Source: Saccharopolyspora gloriosae (lineage in GTDB: Bacteria > Actinomycetota > Actinomycetes > Mycobacteriales > Pseudonocardiaceae). From it: a stretch of DNA of 64,000 nt. Shown here in pieces: positions 8,168-63,252 of this stretch; positions within the stretch are counted from its first letter, which is position 1, and every line of letters begins with the position of its first letter. The notes below the pieces were generated by a model that saw only the letters and a list, made by a program, of their open reading frames with translations, made no database searches and was not told the DNA's origin. Location of the stretch: assembly GCF_014203325.1 (NCBI RefSeq), contig NZ_JACHIV010000001.1, forward strand, positions 5,829,501 through 5,893,500, written 5' to 3'. A program made the position numbers and the translations under genes.

Positions 8168-8216
8168 AGTGAACGGACCGTTCGTCCAAGCTGCTTGGAC
8201 GAACGGTCCGTTCACT
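8168..8216. repeat. Dispersed palindrome, copy 1 (perfect 23-bp arms)
   Basis: Arms at 8168-8190 and 8194-8216 are perfectly complementary around a CTG loop, and the left arm begins AGTGAACGGACCGTTCGTCC. It lies between the convergent GH16 and guaA genes, next to the guaA terminator. It is the most perfect of about 21 copies in the window. Confidence 0.9.
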
Positions 8217-30818: not shown

Positions 30819-30867
30819 AGTGAACGGATCGTTCGACCAATCCCGTTGGACGAACGGTCCGTTCACT
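30819..30867. repeat. Dispersed palindrome, copy 2
   Basis: 22-base arms surround a TCCCG loop with two imperfect positions (one G-T type and one A-A). It lies 20 bases after the cdhB-like stop, where it could serve as a terminator; it follows TTTTT at 30811-30815. Confidence 0.85.
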
Positions 30868-30927
30868 CGCTCCCCTCCCCGGCTCGATTCGCCCACGGAG
30901 CACGGCGTTCGGGAGGGCTTTCGCCGG

Positions 30928-30974
30928 GTGAACGGACCGTTCGTCCAAGCGGATTGGACGAACAGGCCGTTCAC
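30928..30974. repeat. Dispersed palindrome, copy 3
   Basis: GTGAACGGACCGTTCGTCCA opens the left arm; the loop is AGCGGA and the right arm ends GGCCGTTCAC. The loop sequence suggests the inverse orientation to copy 2. Confidence 0.82.
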
Positions 30975-31020
30975 TCACTCCTGAGATCCCGGCGCCGTCG
31001 CCGTCCGGAGCTCTTTCCGG

Positions 31021-31070
31021 AGTGAACGGACCGTTCGACCAATCCCGTTGGACGAACGGTCCGTTGACTC
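31021..31070. repeat. Dispersed palindrome, copy 4
   Basis: The left arm starts AGTGAACGGACCGTTCGACC, the loop is TCCCG and the right arm ends GGTCCGTTGACT. Spacing to copies 3 and 5 is about 95-110 bases. Confidence 0.82.
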
Positions 31071-31130
31071 GGTTCGCCGCCCGGGTTCGGGTGTGCGGGC
31101 ATGAGGGCGTTCGGGGTGCGGGGGTTTGGG

Positions 31131-31177
31131 GTGAACGGACCGGTCGCCCGATCCGGTTGGGCGAACGGGCCGTTCAC
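31131..31177. repeat. Dispersed palindrome, copy 5 (variant arms)
   Basis: The variant arm GTGAACGGACCGGTCGCCCG pairs with GGGCGAACGGGCCGTTCAC across ATCCGGTT. It stands 179 bases before the lacZ-like start. Copies 2-5 fill the 557-base gap; the rest of it shows no gene. Confidence 0.8.
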
Positions 31178-48948: not shown

Positions 48949-49115
48949 CCGGTCACCTCCGCATTCGCCGATTCCTCTCGCCGAGCAGTGAGACGACGAA
49001 GCCACCGGCACCCATCGTGAGCTGCGAAGTCTCATCTTGGCGGAAACACAAAATAGCGATCTACCTTTCGTTTCGTCAGCGGTTCCGCTGGTGATCGAAC
49101 CGAAAGGAGGACGAA

Positions 49116-49385
49116 ATGGCGCTGCCCCACCCTTTCCGATGCCCCAGACCGGTGGCGTTCTGGATCGTCGGGCTGGCGCTGTACCTGCGCCACGCGACGC
49201 CTTCCCGGCCGGGCGCGCTGCCCGGCGGCGAGCGGGCCGCGACGCTGTGCGGCACCTGGATCCGCGTCCCCTTCGACACCCCGCCACCGCGCCGCCCCCG
49301 ATCCGAGCAGATCACCGAACGGTGCCCGCAGTGCGCCGACATCGCCCGCACCCACGACTACCTGCTGCTCACCTGGGACTTCTGA
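49116..49385 (+). CDS. Small cysteine-containing protein divergent from the Scr1-type gene
   Basis: The 89-residue product has an excellent ribosome site (AAAGGAGGACG) before ATG 49116. It shows CPRPVAFWIVGLALYLRHAT, ATLCGTWIRVPFD and ERCPQCADIARTHDYLLLTW, with a late CxxC and four cysteines that could hold zinc. I do not recognise the family. Its divergent arrangement with the Scr1/DUF397 pair is recurrent in my recollection of actinomycete genomes, but I cannot confirm this here. Confidence 0.7.
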   Translation: MALPHPFRCPRPVAFWIVGLALYLRHATPSRPGALPGGERAATLCGTWIRVPFDTPPPRRPRSEQITERCPQCADIARTHDYLLLTWDF

Positions 49386-49515
49386 CACGACACCGGAATC
49401 CACCGGTCTCCGAACCCCGGCCCGTTGCGGCACCTCCCCGACACCGCACCGGACCGGCCGGTGGCCGGGCGCTCCCCCACTCCGTCGCGCCCGGCCACCA
49501 CCCCCACCGCCGGTG

Positions 49516-49563
49516 AGTGAACGGACCGTTCGCCCAATCCCACTGGACGAACGGTCCGTTCAC
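49516..49563. repeat. Dispersed palindrome, copy 6
   Basis: The left arm starts AGTGAACGGACCGTTCGCCC, the loop is TCCCAC and the right arm is GGACGAACGGTCCGTTCAC. Confidence 0.85.
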
Positions 49564-49606
49564 CCGCCCCCGGCCCGCCCTCGCCGGGCCGCCGCGAGCC
49601 GATCGA

Positions 49607-49655
49607 AGTGAACGGACCGCTTGCCCAATCGGATTGGACGAACGGGCCGTTCACT
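49607..49655. repeat. Dispersed palindrome, copy 7
   Basis: The left arm AGTGAACGGACCGCTTGCCC and loop TCGGA are identical to copy 8, 87 bases away, suggesting recent duplication. Confidence 0.83.
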
Positions 49656-49693
49656 CGGAACCAGGCGTCCACGCCGTGACGGGTATCGGATGA

Positions 49694-49773
49694 AGTGAAC
49701 GGACCGCTTGCCCAATCGGATTGGACGAACGGGCCGTTCACTCCAGCTTCGTTGGACGAACGGGCCGTTCACT
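49694..49773. repeat. Dispersed palindrome, copy 8 plus an extra right half-arm
   Basis: A full copy spans 49694-49742. A second right arm, TTGGACGAACGGGCCGTTCA, follows at 49752, making one and a half copies. Confidence 0.82.
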
Positions 49774-49915
49774 CGTGTCCCGCGCCGGGGTGGGCTCCGC
49801 TCGACGGCAGCGCGGTCCGGTATGACCGATCTTCGCGTAGCCTGGCGAGGAGCTGATCTCGCCAGATCGTCCGCGGCGAGGTCACGCCCCGGCACCGGAC
49901 GCAGGAGAATCCACA

Positions 49916-50104
49916 ATGGACTTAGGCAAGCTGTTCAGCTCCCTCTCGCCCGCCAAGCACGACCACCGCTCCTCCCGCGACAGCAGCGACCGCCGCAGGC
50001 ACCACCGCGGGCGCAGCCACTCCAGCAGCGACCACCGCCGCCGTCGCCGCGACAGCTCCAGCCGCAGCGGATCCGGCCGCCGCCGCCACCGCAGCCGCAG
50101 CTGA
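49916..50104 (+). CDS. Ser/Arg-rich (RS-domain-like) mini-protein
   Basis: The 62-residue protein starts at ATG 49916 after GCAGGAGAA. After a short hydrophobic lead (MDLGKLFSSLSPAKHDH) the rest is almost only Ser, Arg, His and Asp: 18 Ser, 18 Arg and 7 His in total. It has runs such as RRRRRDSSSRSGSGRRRHRS and ends RSRS. Third codon positions are almost all G or C, as in real genes here. No family is recognised. The composition is like eukaryotic RS domains, which are kinase substrates. The next gene on the same strand, 91 bases away, is a Ser/Thr kinase. Nucleic-acid binding regulated by phosphorylation is a hypothesis. Confidence 0.75.
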   Translation: MDLGKLFSSLSPAKHDHRSSRDSSDRRRHHRGRSHSSSDHRRRRRDSSSRSGSGRRRHRSRS

Positions 50105-50195
50105 ACGAGCCCGGACCAGCCGAGCCCGCGAGTCCGGCGCCACCGCGCCGGGCTCCGGCCGAAACACCCCGCACCTGCGAACGAAACGGTGGCCC

Positions 50196-51092
50196 GTGGC
50201 CGTTGACGCGCCGAGTTCCTACTACGGCGAAGACGACGACTGGGGAGCTCCCGGCCCCGCCCTGGAAGCCGGCGAGCACCTCGCTCCGGGCTATCGCGTG
50301 CTCTCCCTGCTGCGGCGGGGAAATCGGCTCGACGTCTACGACCTCTGGAGCGAGGAGCGCGGCTGCCGCTGCGTCGGCAAGACCCTGCGCCCGGAACGCG
50401 CCGAGGACACCACCGCCGCCGGGTGGCTGCGCGGCGAAGGGATGCTGCTGGGCTCCCTCACCCATCCGCACCTGGTGCGCGGCTACGAAACGGTGCTCAG
50501 CAGCGAGCCCGCCCGTCCCGTGGTGATCACCGAGACGCTGCCCGGCGCGACGTTGAGCTACCTGCTCGACCAGCACGCGCGGCTGCGGCCCGTCGACGCG
50601 GCGATCCTCGGGATCCAGCTGTGCTCCGTGCTCGGCTACCTGCACCGCCAGGGCTGGGCGCACCTCGACGTGAAACCGTCCAATGTGGTCTCCGCGGGCG
50701 GGCGGGCCGTGCTGCTCGACCTGAGCCTCGCCTGCCGCATCGGCGAGCACAACACCGCAGGCACCTTCGACTACCTCTCGCCCGAGCAGGCGCGCGGTGG
50801 CGAGATGACCGCCGCCACCGACGTCTGGGGACTCGGAATCACCTTGTGGGAGGCCCTTTCCGGCGCACCGCCGTGGGTCGACGTCTCACACCGGCAACGA
50901 CGCGAGGACGGCTCCCGGCACTACCCGCAGCTCGACGGCGCACCGCCGCCGCTGCGCACCCGCCGCCGCCTGCCCGCCCGGCTGTCCCGCACCGTCGACG
51001 CCTGCCTGGCCCCCGACCCGGCCGCGCGCCCGAGCATCGACGAGGTCGCCACCCGCCTGATCACCTGGTCCGGCATCGACCCGACCGCCTGA
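50196..51092 (+). CDS. Soluble serine/threonine protein kinase
   Basis: The 298-residue kinase lacks a transmembrane or PASTA domain. The ATP-binding Lys is K62 (CRCVGKTLRPERAED). The glycine loop is degenerate (SLLRRGNRLDVYDLW). The catalytic loop is WAHLDVKPSNVVSAGGRAVL (HLD in place of HRD, with Lys and Asn kept). The metal-binding Asp is in LLDLSLACRIG (DLS in place of DFG), and TFDYLSPEQARGGEMTAATD is the activation/APE segment. It is probably active, but the glycine loop is unusual. GTG 50196 lacks a good ribosome site. The Ser/Arg-rich mini-protein upstream is a candidate substrate; a GerW/YtfJ-like gene faces it. Confidence 0.88.
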   Translation: MAVDAPSSYYGEDDDWGAPGPALEAGEHLAPGYRVLSLLRRGNRLDVYDLWSEERGCRCVGKTLRPERAEDTTAAGWLRGEGMLLGSLTHPHLVRGYETVLSSEPARPVVITETLPGATLSYLLDQHARLRPVDAAILGIQLCSVLGYLHRQGWAHLDVKPSNVVSAGGRAVLLDLSLACRIGEHNTAGTFDYLSPEQARGGEMTAATDVWGLGITLWEALSGAPPWVDVSHRQRREDGSRHYPQLDGAPPPLRTRRRLPARLSRTVDACLAPDPAARPSIDEVATRLITWSGIDPTA

Positions 51093-51102
51093 GCGGGGAC
51101 TG

Positions 51103-51447
51103 TCAGCGCTTGCGGCGGAACGCGATGGCGCAAGCCACGCCGATCGCCGTGAGCGCGAGCTGACCGCCCAGGACGATGCGGTTCACGCTCACCGCCGGAT
51201 GCCAGACGGCGCCCTCCGAGGTGACCGCCCACGCGCCGACGGGCCGGGCCACGGCGCCGACTCCCCCGCCGGTTCCCCGCTTCTTCCTGCCGCCGAGCCC
51301 ACCACCGGTGCGGACCTGCGCGACCGGCACCAACGTCGTGTCGCCCTGCTGCACGACCGGCCCGAAGACCTGGTCCTCCCGGAGGCGAGCGGCGAGCGCG
51401 GACAACGCGTCCTCGGTCGCGGCGAGCTCGTTGTCGTTCCCGGCCAT
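51103..51447 (-). CDS. GerW/YtfJ-family small membrane protein
   Basis: The 114-residue protein has the YtfJ core QVFGPVVQQGDTTLVPVAQV, a Gly/Lys-rich loop (GGGLGGRKKRGTGGGVGAVA), and VGAWAVTSEGAVWHPAVSV. A C-terminal transmembrane helix (IVLGGQLALTAIGVACAIAF) ends RRKR. The family is named for a Bacillus spore protein, but similar proteins are common in actinobacteria without that role. ATG 51447 follows GAGGAGGGG. It is convergent with the kinase gene, ten bases apart. Confidence 0.8.
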   Translation of the reverse strand: MAGNDNELAATEDALSALAARLREDQVFGPVVQQGDTTLVPVAQVRTGGGLGGRKKRGTGGGVGAVARPVGAWAVTSEGAVWHPAVSVNRIVLGGQLALTAIGVACAIAFRRKR

Positions 51448-51532
51448 GGCCCCTCCTCGAACGATCACCCGTCCCGCCAACCCTAGCCGCCCACCACCCC
51501 CACCAGACCCCCTTCAGCCCGACGCCCCTTCC

Positions 51533-51582
51533 GGACGAACGGCCCGTTCGCCCAACGGGATCGGACAAGCAGGCCGTTCACT
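51533..51582. repeat. Dispersed palindrome, copy 9 (degenerate)
   Basis: GACGAACGGCCCGTTCGCCC and GGACAAGCAGGCCGTTCACT pair with several mismatches; it is the most eroded full-length copy. Confidence 0.7.
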
Positions 51583-51619
51583 CCGCCCCGACTCGCCTCC
51601 GACCCGCGCTTCCGGATCA

Positions 51620-51668
51620 AGTGAACGGACCGTTCGTCCAATCCTGTTGGGCAAACGGTCCGTTCACT
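51620..51668. repeat. Dispersed palindrome, copy 10
   Basis: The left arm begins AGTGAACGGACCGTTCGTCC, the loop is TCCTG, and the right arm uses the TTGGGCAAACGG variant. Confidence 0.85.
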
Positions 51669-51699
51669 CCACCCCGATCCGCCCCCGACCCGCGCTTCG

Positions 51700-51747
51700 G
51701 GAACGGACCGTTCGTCCAATCCCGTTGGGCAAACGGTCCGTTCACTC
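51700..51747. repeat. Dispersed palindrome, copy 11
   Basis: GAACGGACCGTTCGTCCAAT opens the element and the right arm ends ACGGTCCGTTCACT. It is about 80 bases from copies 10 and 12. Confidence 0.85.
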
Positions 51748-51784
51748 CATCCCGATCCGCCGCTGACGCGTGGTTCGAGTTCGG

Positions 51785-51831
51785 GTGAACGGACCGTTGG
51801 TCCAATCTCGTTGGGCAAACCGGCCGTTCAC
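51785..51831. repeat. Dispersed palindrome, copy 12
   Basis: GTGAACGGACCGTTGGTCCA (left), loop TCTCG, right arm ends CCGGCCGTTCAC. It is 26 bases beyond the hydrolase stop, so it may end that transcript. Copies 9-12 fill the 409-base gap; no gene is seen. Confidence 0.83.
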
Positions 51832-51856
51832 TTCATCCCGGCGCTGCGCGGGTGGG

Positions 51857-52804
51857 CTACTTCGAGTCGACTCGGCCGAGCGGGGTCGGGGTGGCCGCCA
51901 GGTCGGCGCACGCCTCCTGCCAGGAGGGGTCGCCGGGGTGCAGCGTCGAGCGGAGGTAGGCCGTGGTGAGCCGCCGGACCGCCTCCACCCGCTCGGGGTT
52001 CTCGTCGGTGGTCTCCGCGACGTCGTACCCGGACACGCCGCCGAGCCCGTGCCCGGCGCCGAACAGGGTGAGCAGCGATTTCGGGCCGGGCGCGAGGAAG
52101 TACGGGTCGGCGTGCCACTGCGGGCCGCGAACGGTCAGGTGCTCGGAGGCGTCCGCGTCCCCGGCGACGACCAGCGCGGGAGCGGCCATCTCGGCGAAGT
52201 CGATCCCCAGGAAAAACGGGTAGTTCTCGGCGACGAACTCGGTCACGGCGTCGCCGCCCCGGCCGGGCGCGGCGAGCAGGACGCCCGCCTTGATCCGCGG
52301 CTCGGTCAGGTCCACCACCGAGCCGTCGGTCGGGTCGGTGAGCCGCGAACCCAGCAGCATGCTCGCGGTGTGCCCGCCCATGGAGTGCCCGGCGACGGCG
52401 ACCTTCTCCCGGTCCAGCCGCCCGCGCAGCTGCGGGACGGCGTCCTCGATCTCGTCGAACCGGTCGAGGACGGCCGACATGTCCAGCACCCGCGACCGCC
52501 AGTGCAGCGGCGCGTCGGGCTCGTCGGTGTCGAGCCGCAACGTCGTCGAGCTCAGGTGGGTCGGCTGGATCACGACGAAGCCGTGCGCGGCCCAGTGGTC
52601 GACGAGCGGCGCGTAGCCGTCGAGCGAGGAGAGGTGGTGGGAGTGGCCTTGCCCGTGCGACAGGAGGATCACCGGCAGGCCGGTCCCGGTGACGGGCGCG
52701 GAGACCCGCACTTCCAGGTCCACCGGGCGGCCCGGCACCGGCAGCACCACCGGGCGGACCGAGAGGACGGGTGCGGCGTCGGCCGCGTGGGTCGAGTCGT
52801 TCAT
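51857..52804 (-). CDS. Alpha/beta hydrolase (dienelactone-hydrolase/PAF-acetylhydrolase-like)
   Basis: The 315-residue cytoplasmic hydrolase has an oxyanion loop ILLSHGQGHSHHLSSLDGYA. The nucleophile elbow is VAVAGHSMGGHTASMLLGSR (GHSMGG). Likely acid Asp is in ALVVAGDADASEHL and His in FGAGHGLGGVSGYD. Ester or lactone hydrolysis is expected; the substrate is unknown. ATG 52804 starts MNDSTHAADAAPVLSV. Upstream, at 52876-52916, is a large two-site palindrome of the TetR type, so expression is likely ligand-induced, but no TetR gene is adjacent. Confidence 0.88.
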   Translation of the reverse strand: MNDSTHAADAAPVLSVRPVVLPVPGRPVDLEVRVSAPVTGTGLPVILLSHGQGHSHHLSSLDGYAPLVDHWAAHGFVVIQPTHLSSTTLRLDTDEPDAPLHWRSRVLDMSAVLDRFDEIEDAVPQLRGRLDREKVAVAGHSMGGHTASMLLGSRLTDPTDGSVVDLTEPRIKAGVLLAAPGRGGDAVTEFVAENYPFFLGIDFAEMAAPALVVAGDADASEHLTVRGPQWHADPYFLAPGPKSLLTLFGAGHGLGGVSGYDVAETTDENPERVEAVRRLTTAYLRSTLHPGDPSWQEACADLAATPTPLGRVDSK

Positions 52805-60853: not shown

Positions 60854-60902
60854 AGTGAACGGACCGTTCGTCCAATCCCGTTGGGCAAACGGTCCGCTCA
60901 CC
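60854..60902. repeat. Dispersed palindrome, copy 13
   Basis: The left arm starts AGTGAACGGACCGTTCGTCC, the loop is TCCCG, and the right arm is TTGGGCAAACGGTCCGCTCA. Confidence 0.85.
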
Positions 60903-60939
60903 CCAGCCCGCCCCACGCGACGTGAGATTCCAGCTCCAG

Positions 60940-60976
60940 GTGAACGGAGCTCCCGTTGGGCAAACGGTCCGCTCAC
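60940..60976. repeat. Dispersed palindrome, copy 14 (left arm truncated)
   Basis: GTGAACGGAGC runs directly into TCCCGTTGGGCAAACGGTCC, so about ten bases of the left arm are missing while the right arm is intact. Confidence 0.75.
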
Positions 60977-61021
60977 CCCAACGCCCACGCGGATCGCCGC
61001 ACAGCGCACGCCCCTGATCCG

Positions 61022-61070
61022 AGTGAACGGCCCGTTCGCCCAATCCCATTGGGCGGACGGGCCGCTCACC
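61022..61070. repeat. Dispersed palindrome, copy 15
   Basis: AGTGAACGGCCCGTTCGCCC opens it; the right arm TTGGGCGGACGGGCCGCTCA keeps most pairs with the changed left arm (CCC with GGG). Confidence 0.83.
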
Positions 61071-61085
61071 CCCGACCCCGAACCG

Positions 61086-61132
61086 AGTCAACGGACCGTT
61101 CGCCCAATCCCGTTGGACGAACGGGCCGCTCA
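61086..61132. repeat. Dispersed palindrome, copy 16
   Basis: AGTCAACGGACCGTTCGCCC (left), loop TCCCG, right arm GGACGAACGGGCCGCTCAC. It is 16 bases from copy 15. Confidence 0.82.
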
Positions 61133-61173
61133 CCCAGCCCGCGTGATCACCACACGGCGCGCGCTCTGAAACG

Positions 61174-61222
61174 AGTGAACGGACCGTTCGTCCCATCTCG
61201 TTGGGCGAACGGTCCGTTCACT
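61174..61222. repeat. Dispersed palindrome, copy 17
   Basis: AGTGAACGGACCGTTCGTCC opens the element and GGGCGAACGGTCCGTTCACT closes it; it is 20 bases beyond the nnr stop and could end that transcript. Confidence 0.85.
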
Positions 61223-61242
61223 TCAGCGGCGGGGCGGTGCGA

Positions 61243-62739
61243 TCAGGTGGAGCGGAGGGTGCGGATCGCCGCCGGGAGCGCCGCGAGCAGGGCTGAAGCC
61301 CCGATCGGCGCACCGGCCTCCTCGCCGGCACCTCCGAGGGCGGCGAGCTCGGCGGCGAGGGCGTGCGCGTGCGCGGCGAAACCGCAGGCCAGCCACGGGT
61401 CCATCCCCGTGGCCAGCAGTGCCCCGATCAACCCGGTGAGCACGTCGCCCGACCCGGCCGTCGCGGGCCACGCGTGCGTCGAAGGGTTGACCAGCACTCG
61501 GCCGTCCGGAGCGGCGATCACCGTGGTGTTGCCCTTGAGCAGCAGCACCACGTCGTCGCGCCGCGCCACCTCCCGCGCCGCGGCGACCCGGTCCGGGCCC
61601 ACCTCGCCCGCGAGCCGCTCGAACTCACCGGCGTGCGGTGTCAGCACCACCGCCGCGTCCGGCTCCCGCGCGTCCCACAGCGTCGGGTCCTGCGCGAACA
61701 ACGTGATCGAGTCCGCGTCCGCGCACACCGGGCGCCCCGACTCCAGCACGTGCCGCAGCACCTCGCGCCCGCTGGCCCCGGTGCCGATGCCCGGCCCGAC
61801 CGCCCAGGACTGCACCCGTCCCGCGTCGGCGACCGACCCGGTCGCCACCACCTCCGGCCATCGGGACCGCACCACGTCCGCGGCGGGCCCGGCGTAGCGG
61901 ACCATGCCCGACGTCGCCTGCACCGCCGAGCCCGCGGCCAGCACCGCCGCACCCGGATACGTCGCCGACCCCGCCGCGACACCCACGACGCCCTGCGAGT
62001 ACTTGTCGTCCGACGCCCCCGGCACCGGCCATCCCGCGCCGACGTCCGACGGCTCCAGCACGTGCAGATCAGGCTCGGGAAGATCATCGCCCAGGCCGAT
62101 GTCGGCCACCACGACCGAGCCCGACAGCACCGCGCCCGCTCCCAGCACGTGGCACGGCTTGCGCCCGCCGAAGGTGACGGTCAGGTCCGCGTCGACGGCG
62201 GGCCCGTCCACCGCCCCGGTGATCGGGTCGACGCCGCTGGGCAGGTCGACCGCCACGATCGGCGCTTCGACCCGAGCGACCAGCTCGGCCGCCACCGGGC
62301 GCAGGCTCCCCCGCGCCGAAAGACCGACGATGCCGTCGATCACCAGGTCCGCGCGCTGCACCGCGTCCGTCGCGGCGGCCCCGATGCCGGCGGTGTCCGC
62401 GCCCGGCCCCGACGCCTCCACGACCCGGCCGCCCGCGCGGCGCAACGCCGCCAGCCCGGCCGGGTGCGCCTTGTCCGGAGCCAGCAGGACCGCGGTGACC
62501 CCGGCTCCTCGGCGGCGCAGCTCGGCACCGGCCCACAGCGCGTCCCCACCGTTGTTGCCCGCTCCGACCAGCAACGTCACGTGCCGGCCCGCGGTCGCTC
62601 CGGTCGTCTCGGCCAGCAGCCGCGCGCTGTGCGCGGCGACGGCGAACGCGGCGCGGCGCATCACCAACGGCTCCGGGGTCCGGGCGAACACACTGCGCTC
62701 GGCGGCCCGGATCTGATCCGGCGTCCACACTCCCTGCAC
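61243..62739 (-). CDS. nnr: Bifunctional NAD(P)HX epimerase/dehydratase (Nnr)
   Basis: The 498-residue metabolite-repair enzyme restores NADH/NADPH from their hydrates. The N-terminal YjeF epimerase domain (WTPDQIRAAERSVFARTPEP, LLVGAGNNGGDALWAGAELR, VAVDLPSGVDPITG) is fused to the C-terminal carbohydrate-kinase-like dehydratase. Dehydratase landmarks are VVLTPHAGEFERLAGEVGPD, VVLLLKGNTTVIAAPDGRVL and WPATAGSGDVLTGLIGALLA. GTG 62739 begins MQGVWTPDQ. Its order between glmS and alr is conserved in actinobacteria. Confidence 0.95.
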   Translation of the reverse strand: MQGVWTPDQIRAAERSVFARTPEPLVMRRAAFAVAAHSARLLAETTGATAGRHVTLLVGAGNNGGDALWAGAELRRRGAGVTAVLLAPDKAHPAGLAALRRAGGRVVEASGPGADTAGIGAAATDAVQRADLVIDGIVGLSARGSLRPVAAELVARVEAPIVAVDLPSGVDPITGAVDGPAVDADLTVTFGGRKPCHVLGAGAVLSGSVVVADIGLGDDLPEPDLHVLEPSDVGAGWPVPGASDDKYSQGVVGVAAGSATYPGAAVLAAGSAVQATSGMVRYAGPAADVVRSRWPEVVATGSVADAGRVQSWAVGPGIGTGASGREVLRHVLESGRPVCADADSITLFAQDPTLWDAREPDAAVVLTPHAGEFERLAGEVGPDRVAAAREVARRDDVVLLLKGNTTVIAAPDGRVLVNPSTHAWPATAGSGDVLTGLIGALLATGMDPWLACGFAAHAHALAAELAALGGAGEEAGAPIGASALLAALPAAIRTLRST

Positions 62740-62823
62740 GGAGACCTCCCACTCGCGGTTGCTGCCGTCTTACCCGATCACCGCGCCCCTGTCGCGCCAC
62801 CCACCGCACCGACACCGTCTCCG

Positions 62824-62933
62824 AGTGAACGGACCGTTCGCCCAATCCCGTTGGACGAACAGGCCGTTCGCCCAATCCCGTTGGACGAACAGGCCGTTCG
62901 CCCAATCCCGTTGGACGAACAGGCCGTTCACCC
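62824..62933. repeat. Dispersed palindrome, copy 18, with internal tandem expansion
   Basis: A normal copy starts at 62824. Its loop and right arm (CGCCCAATCCCGTTGGACGA) are then repeated with a strict 30-bp period, giving three tandem loops before the closing GGCCGTTCACC near 62932. The three units are identical, so the expansion is recent. Confidence 0.88.
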
Positions 62934-62968
62934 CACCTCACCCTCCGGCCGGACAGGAACCGGACGGG

Positions 62969-63018
62969 AGTGAACGGACCGTCTGCCCAATCTCATCGGA
63001 CGAACAGGCCGTCCACCC
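62969..63018. repeat. Dispersed palindrome, copy 19
   Basis: AGTGAACGGACCGTCTGCCC, loop TCTCA, right arm GGACGAACAGGCCGTCCACC. Confidence 0.8.
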
Positions 63019-63053
63019 CGGCTCACCCCCCGAACCGAGCGAGAACCGGTTCG

Positions 63054-63101
63054 AGTCAACGGACCGTTCGCCCAACCTCCTTGGACGAACGAGCCGTTCA
63101 C
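63054..63101. repeat. Dispersed palindrome, copy 20
   Basis: AGTCAACGGACCGTTCGCCC, loop CCTCC, right arm GGACGAACGAGCCGTTCACC. Confidence 0.8.
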
Positions 63102-63128
63102 CCCAGCCGGAGAGCGGCAGCGGTTCCG

Positions 63129-63177
63129 AGTGAACGGACCGTCTGCCCAATCCCGTTGGGCGAACAGGCCGTTCGCT
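63129..63177. repeat. Dispersed palindrome, copy 21
   Basis: AGTGAACGGACCGTCTGCCC, loop TCCCG, right arm GGGCGAACAGGCCGTTCGCT. Copies 18-21 fill most of the 535-base gap between glmS and nnr. Confidence 0.8.
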
Positions 63178-63210
63178 CGGGAGCGAGTTCGCCTCGGCGG
63201 TCCGCGAAAG

Positions 63211-63252
63211 CCGGACGGGCCGCTCGACGCTGTGGTCGAACGGCCCGTCCGG
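63211..63252 (-). terminator. Terminator after glmS
   Basis: CCGGACGGGCCG (63211-63222) pairs perfectly with CGGCCCGTCCGG (63241-63252), and an inner TCGAC/GTCGA stem closes the top. It lies 22 bases beyond the glmS stop. Confidence 0.8.

Follow-up and report, generated by a model that had tools for sequence, protein, structure and literature searches.

A Ser/Arg-rich microprotein gene strictly linked to a Ser/Thr kinase gene in the Saccharopolyspora group suggests a bacterial look-alike of phosphorylation-switched SR proteins

A predicted gene for a small, basic, Ser/Arg-rich protein lies immediately upstream of a Ser/Thr kinase gene in a 64,000-nucleotide stretch of Saccharopolyspora gloriosae DNA (the window) and, as judged by sequence comparison, the two genes are a strictly linked pair. 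Their pairing among the relatives of this organism suggests that bacteria possess a look-alike of the SR proteins that eukaryotes switch by phosphorylation. A bacterial Ser/Thr kinase with an obvious dedicated partner is unusual; here the linkage of the genes, their joint absence from one genome and a tail that uses Ser and not Thr all point to such a partner, and the module is small enough to be rebuilt in the tube. The pair also brings to light a family of microproteins without a match in Pfam.

The preliminary description of this DNA reported a protein of 62 residues with 18 Ser and 18 Arg and an RSRS end, followed 91 bases after its stop by a kinase, and the reading of the ORFs bore out each of these particulars (Table 1). 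Because the DNA is GC-rich (0.67–0.73 around the microprotein, in a genome, G000, of 6.8 Mb), a Ser/Arg composition alone is weak evidence for a gene: the six frames of the window hold 30 places with at least 11 Ser and at least 11 Arg per 45 residues, of which the microprotein ORF is the most extreme (33/45, against 27 for the runner-up). These 30 stretches speak for a chance low-complexity frame, a reading that is nevertheless contradicted by the adjacency of ORF and kinase at 31 of 31 loci, by invariant residues, by profile matches and by pN/pS, and that we regard as vanishingly improbable. It is this conservation that establishes the Ser/Arg ORF as a genuine gene. Across 30 orthologues the protein ranges from 51 to 82 residues, the start codon is ATG in 22 and GTG in eight, and 29 have a GGAG no more than 18 nt from the start. 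Comparison of the orthologues indicates that purifying selection acts on the amino-acid sequence. When computed on 11 disjoint pairs, pN/pS amounts to 0.04 in residues 2–15 and 0.26 in the tail; for all pairs the ratios are 0.43 and 0.68, the signal being blurred by saturation and uncertain tail alignment, and in two close groups the tail ratio is uninformative (1.78 on three changes in one, zero changes in the other). No match to the microprotein was found in Pfam (30 members, E up to 0.5), in NCBIfam or PADLOC (window protein as query) or, with the family profile, among solved structures (E up to 0.1). Small novel ORFs figure in the accessible part of a re-annotation paper on S. erythraea (PMC4008361).

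Table 1. Features of the microprotein–kinase locus, in window coordinates
Feature	Coordinates	Strand	Remarks
Block like those 5' of the microprotein in the other five genomes of the genus	49820..49850	+	alignment by eye
Ribosome-binding site AGGAG	49903..49907	+	8 bases 5' of ATG
Ser/Arg-rich microprotein gene (predicted)	49916..50104	+	62 aa plus stop
Conserved N-terminal segment MDLGKLFSSLSPAKH	49916..49960	+	P12, A13 and K14 invariant in 30/30
Ser/Arg/His/Asp tail, probably disordered	49961..50101	+	pLDDT about 55–58
Invariant C-terminal R-S-x-S (here RSRS)	50090..50101	+	R59, S60 and S62 invariant in 30/30
Ser/Thr protein kinase gene, kinase domain only	50196..51092	+	298 aa, GTG start, PF00069
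Acidic, Tyr-containing N-terminal tail of the kinase	50196..50270	+	candidate dock for the basic peptide
Catalytic Lys62 codon	50379..50381	+	invariant in 30/30
HLD catalytic-loop motif	50661..50669	+	HLD or HID in 29/30; HRD in L106
DLS replacing DFG, then DFG+1 Leu178	50718..50729	+	invariant in 30/30

The evidence for linkage comes from 297 Pseudonocardiaceae genomes, in which the kinase was sought at E up to 1e-60. A match was obtained in 39 of them, at 64–100% identity in 31 and solely at lower identity in eight (44–48%, or 42–46% on realignment). In all 31 close orthologues a Ser/Arg ORF lies immediately 5' of the kinase gene, and in 30 the ORF is intact. The other copy, in genome G114 (locus L156), is frame-broken beside an open kinase frame, as could arise by real decay or by sequencing error. 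A profile of the 30 intact microproteins, from which the frame-broken copy was left out, matches 31 of the 297 genomes, and these are the same 31 that carry the close kinase (the lists were compared by eye). Recovery of these genomes is expected, since the profile was built from those loci; the informative part of the search is the absence of a match from the other 266, with up to 21 candidates scored per genome. Loss of the small ORF or of its pairing in relatives had been named beforehand as an outcome that would refute the proposal; with adjacency at 31 of 31 loci, an intact ORF at 30 of them and both genes in the same 31 genomes, the proposal survived this test.

The microprotein is present in all six genomes of the genus to which the window belongs. 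In the S. hirsuta genus, where all candidates were scored, 21 of the 22 genomes have it. The remaining genome, G247 (4.2 Mb, 92% complete), lacks both the microprotein and a close kinase orthologue (best 35% identity) and retains the flanking genes, including a CitE-like gene; the slot is taken by a methyltransferase-like ORF between YtfJ-like and S8-protease-like ORFs (named by eye). This is a single incomplete genome, yet the slot of the gene pair is assembled in it. Beyond the family, the profile matched 13 of 397 genomes of the order at E up to 0.01, ten of which are the known clade while three (G405, G419 and G534) gave weak, partial matches, and six of 396 genomes of the phylum, namely the window's own and five weak ones. 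No match to the window kinase lies near the eight weak matches (loci of 2.2–5.2 kb). Up to 15 first-look candidates per genome were scored in the order and phylum searches, so that absence beyond the clade is not proven by them.

The immediate neighbourhood of the pair is looser than the pair itself. In a survey of the 31 loci with flanks of at most some 7 kb (L080 ends 540 nt upstream), a CitE-like gene is found near the pair in 30, a YtfJ-like gene in 28 (flipped in two of the 31) and an S8 protease gene in 21, at varying distances. At one locus (L106) the pair is kept with none of the eight other tested neighbours within roughly 7 kb on each side, and the microprotein gene is the one tested gene that invariably abuts that of the kinase. 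A small conserved protein encoded on the reverse strand at 51103–51480, with a hydrophobic C-terminus by eye and a sub-threshold match to Spore_YtfJ (17.5 bits, cut-off 25), accompanies the pair at 28 of the 31 loci.

The distance from the microprotein stop to the kinase start is 8–97 nt across loci, with the kinase start extrapolated from the alignment, and the two genes are likely to be read from one transcript. No terminator-like site was found in 49700–51200 and no Rfam match in 49000–52000. A sigma-70 scan of 49700–51200 likewise returned no site. In other genera a promoter-like sequence TCGACC-17-[AG]ACAAT, or a close variant, begins 71–125 nt 5' of the microprotein; it is present at 18 of 30 loci, compared with 3 of 2757 control windows, a count that is not an independent test because the pattern was devised after the alignment had been seen. 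The 12 loci that lack it comprise all six of the window's genus and six more. The upstream block that the window shares with the rest of its genus (Table 1) is possibly the promoter. The intergenic DNA of the window also carries a short palindromic repeat, GAACGGNCCGTTC, often paired about 30 bases apart, at 49519–49770, 51537–51799, 8171–8213, 30822–31175 and 60857–63250. The window holds 36 matches with at most one mismatch, where 0.41 are expected, and across the genome a 23-base version, with up to three mismatches allowed, gives 190 matches in the forward and 196 in the reverse orientation (control 0), these figures being matches and not elements.

The composition of the microprotein is restricted. 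A short helix is predicted at residues 3–10 by a model made from five sequences, of low overall confidence, and the remainder of the model has low confidence as expected for disorder, so that the tail is probably disordered. The tails of the 30 orthologues comprise 1527 residues, including 491 Arg, 437 Ser, 245 His, 157 Asp, 118 Gly, 46 Tyr, seven Lys and one Thr. The Ser:Thr ratio of 437:1 contrasts with 596:595 in the partner kinases. A ban on C at the second codon position does not explain the missing Thr, since the tails use TCN codons for Ser 104 times and ACN codons for Thr once, and several columns retain Ser while drawing on two codon families. The tails are also poor in Asn, Ala, Pro and Lys, and the restriction is therefore wider than Thr alone. 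Ser and Arg stand mostly in alternating clusters, with one to eight RS/SR dipeptides per protein. The net charge (Arg+Lys–Asp–Glu) is +9 to +16 in 30 of 30 microproteins and would reach –9 to –26 if every Ser were phosphorylated, a computed limit that need not be reached.

The partner kinase has an intact fold and intact catalytic residues, which fits the kinase–substrate module set out below. It scores 102.1 bits against Pkinase PF00069, above the gathering cut-off of 31.7, residues K62, E81, D158, K160, N163 and D175 show no variation among the 30 orthologues, and the structure model is confident (pLDDT 87.1, pTM 0.86). No domain besides the kinase domain was detected in the protein. The HLD and DLS motifs and the degenerate glycine loop (RRGNRLDVY) noticed in the preliminary description are all present in the sequence. 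Its judgement that the kinase is not of the standard PknB type holds for motifs and architecture, yet PknB is the nearest solved relative by both sequence and fold (TM 0.72–0.79, 27–30% identity, among the PknB matches listed). The N-terminal tail has a net charge of 0 to –6 in its aligned part across the 30 orthologues, its acidic character being faint or absent in the alignment for L106 and L109, and has pLDDT below 50 at residues 1–13. Five cysteines, Cys57 and Cys59 (50364–50372), Cys143 (50622–50624), Cys180 (50733–50735) and Cys270 (51003–51005), are invariant in 30 of 30 kinase orthologues, for which a redox or metal role is possible from the sequence; the first two form a CRC motif, shortly before the catalytic lysine, that is found also in 11 of 16 distant kinases.

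The kinase probably favours Ser, as suggested by the residue at DFG+1, which is Leu in 30 of 30 partner kinases. In PKA, two acidic residues, which we take to correspond to a Thr and a Ser here, serve Arg-flanked sites, so that a preference for basic sites is not evident from the sequence of this kinase. Other kinase loci of the window's genus have Ile at DFG+1 in all six of the 24 that were readable by motif expression, including one (L022) in the window's own genome. Leu is found in 10 of 11 readable distant kinases (11 of 16 being readable), and the trait thus predates pairing with the microprotein. According to the accessible part of one study (Chen et al. 2014, PMC3898841), Leu, Phe and Met predominate at DFG+1 in Ser-selective yeast kinases, whilst Leu or Ser occurs there in non-selective kinases and Ile in most Thr-specific ones; because that work, as far as it was accessible, dealt with eukaryotic kinases, the rule is carried over to a bacterial kinase by inference.

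These features can be joined in a mechanism in which the two genes act as one operon-like module with a presumed shared transcript. The first product would be a probably disordered polycation, in which a short helix with an SPAKH motif is followed by a tail where Ser clusters and Arg runs alternate and by the RSxS end. The second would be a dedicated kinase with a PknB-like fold, a non-RD loop and probably a liking for Ser. The kinase may dock on the conserved ends of the microprotein and phosphorylate many of the tail serines, which would bring the window protein from a net charge of about +14 towards –22 at most. Such a charge reversal would loosen or alter the hold of the protein on a polyanion, for which DNA or RNA is the likeliest candidate. 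Tails with Ser in place of Thr, Leu at DFG+1 and the net charge of +9 to +16 in 30 of 30 microproteins are consistent with a phospho-switch. Weighing against the module are the occurrence of Leu at DFG+1 in distant kinases, the absence of an evident preference for basic sites, the rarity of several tail residues besides Thr, the faint acidic tail of the kinase in L106 and L109, the frame-broken copy in G114 and the 12 loci, that of the window included, without the promoter-like sequence. That the gene pair is functional we hold with considerable confidence; for the proposal as a whole, in which a kinase phosphorylates its substrate at many Ser and thereby reverses a charge that most likely serves to bind nucleic acid, the case seems to us evenly balanced. 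We put forward more tentatively that the Saccharopolyspora group has independently evolved a complete SR-protein-like switch, in which a dedicated Ser kinase would reverse the charge of a disordered Arg/Ser microprotein by multisite phosphorylation and so control nucleic-acid binding or condensates with no splicing machinery. If the switch is real, phospho-control of the RS type over polyelectrolyte tails has more than one origin and can do without splicing, and the pair would provide a minimal model of multisite charge switching.

The main rival to the kinase–substrate module holds that the microprotein is chiefly a subunit of the kinase and not its main substrate, with the N-terminal helix and SPAKH segment and the RSxS end binding the kinase so as to activate or inhibit it, and with the basic tail as a tether to nucleoid, RNA or membrane. 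It would account for ends that are the most conserved parts of a protein of variable length (51 to 82 residues), for the one-to-one linkage of the genes and for a kinase protein in which no other domain was detected; a tether alone leaves 437 tail Ser against one Thr unexplained. We think it rather unlikely as the principal role, and both readings could hold together. Compaction or shielding of DNA in spores or resting cells by a protamine-like peptide, with phosphorylation governing its loading, is a less probable role. Spore formation is known in the Saccharopolyspora group and is counted in its favour, as is the polycationic Arg/Ser tail. A precedent also exists in mycobacteria, where phosphorylation of HupB lowers DNA binding, according to the accessible part of a review (PMC4754617). 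Against such a role stand the sigma-70-like site at 18 of 30 loci, the restriction of profile matches to just 31 of 297 genomes of the family and the fact that the sole sporulation hint among the scanned neighbours is the sub-threshold Spore_YtfJ match.

Two further readings were weighed. A leader peptide that merely tunes kinase translation would be expected to look much like this one in being short, in stopping 8–97 nt before the extrapolated kinase start and in having a variable tail, but selection at the amino-acid level, the maintenance of Ser through two codon families, the invariant termini and the lack of a terminator-like site (49700–51200) or Rfam match (49000–52000) make it very improbable. 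It is harder still to credit a toxin–antitoxin-like arrangement in which a toxic cationic peptide is neutralised by the kinase. The genes are adjacent, the peptide is basic and both are absent from G247, as such an arrangement would have it; presence in 21 of 22 genomes of one genus and six of six of the window's, in largely syntenic positions, is nevertheless unlike the behaviour of a mobile module.

Comparison with other kinases places the pair apart from systems that it resembles in part. Among 17 further stretches, one (L063) belongs to the close group, leaving 16 distant kinases of the same family (42–48% identity), which have HLD, DLS and often CRC in common with the window kinase; no Ser/Arg ORF was seen upstream in 16 of 16 (L068 and L076 show less than 200 nt upstream). 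Several members of this distant group (L064–L079) follow ABC-exporter-like ORFs, as judged by eye. PASTA kinases of the PknB type have the same fold, and PknB is the best match by sequence and structure among the matches listed, whereas the window kinase is a kinase domain only, of 298 aa, with HLD, DLS and an RRG glycine loop; it scores 96.1 bits against the Stk1/PknB PASTA model NF033483 (cut-off 450), the kinase part alone matching. In a PADLOC scan of the two proteins of the pair, 31 kinase models match along the kinase domain, the best being MAD6 at 1e-37, for which no cut-off is given; the NCBIfam model of the MAD6 defence kinase gives 79.8 bits against a cut-off of 460, and a role in a defence system (MAD6, PD-T4-6) is, on these scans of the pair itself, unlikely. 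In class III/IV lanthionine synthetases the kinase is joined to lyase and cyclase domains, and the precursor contains Cys. An assignment of the pair as lanthipeptide precursor and synthetase was rejected, as LanL scores 86.9 bits against a cut-off of 650 with the kinase part alone, and Cys is absent from the microprotein tails in 30 of 30.

The pair also resembles the eukaryotic SR proteins and their SRPK/CLK kinases, in which a tail rich in Arg and Ser likewise has a kinase of its own; the common idea would be a charge switch worked by multisite phosphorylation. SR proteins are defined by one or two RRM domains and a long tract of dense RS/SR dipeptides, whilst the microprotein has no Pfam domain in 30 of 30 members (E up to 0.5) and only one to eight such dipeptides in 51–82 aa. 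The kinase, in place of an SRPK-type domain with a large spacer insert, is a compact protein of 298 aa nearest to PknB, and no SRPK appears among the best 60 of 1605 sequence matches or the best 50 of at least 2000 structure matches. By membership the pair is therefore neither an SR protein nor an SRPK, and its mode of action may be similar to theirs. The likeness to eukaryotic RS domains drawn in the preliminary description thus stands at most at the level of function and fails on family grounds, given the missing RRM, the few RS/SR dipeptides and the PknB-like kinase.

Among actinobacterial proteins, HupB has a folded DNA-binding domain. The microprotein, in contrast, has no Pfam match in 30 of 30 members and a predicted helix of eight residues, where HU and HupB have a folded HU domain and a basic tail. 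Lsr2 also has a folded DNA-binding domain, with an NMR structure, and its phosphorylation by PknB lowers DNA binding, as described in the accessible part of PMC6906086. Together with the phosphorylation of mycobacterial HupB by Ser/Thr kinases, which lowers DNA binding according to the review (PMC4754617), this makes kinase control of actinobacterial nucleoid proteins a known phenomenon, at least from the accessible parts of these sources, and those parts make no mention of a substrate and its kinase sharing an operon. Titles and abstract openings in the literature yielded no description of a Ser/Arg microprotein beside its own kinase, the matches being unrelated.
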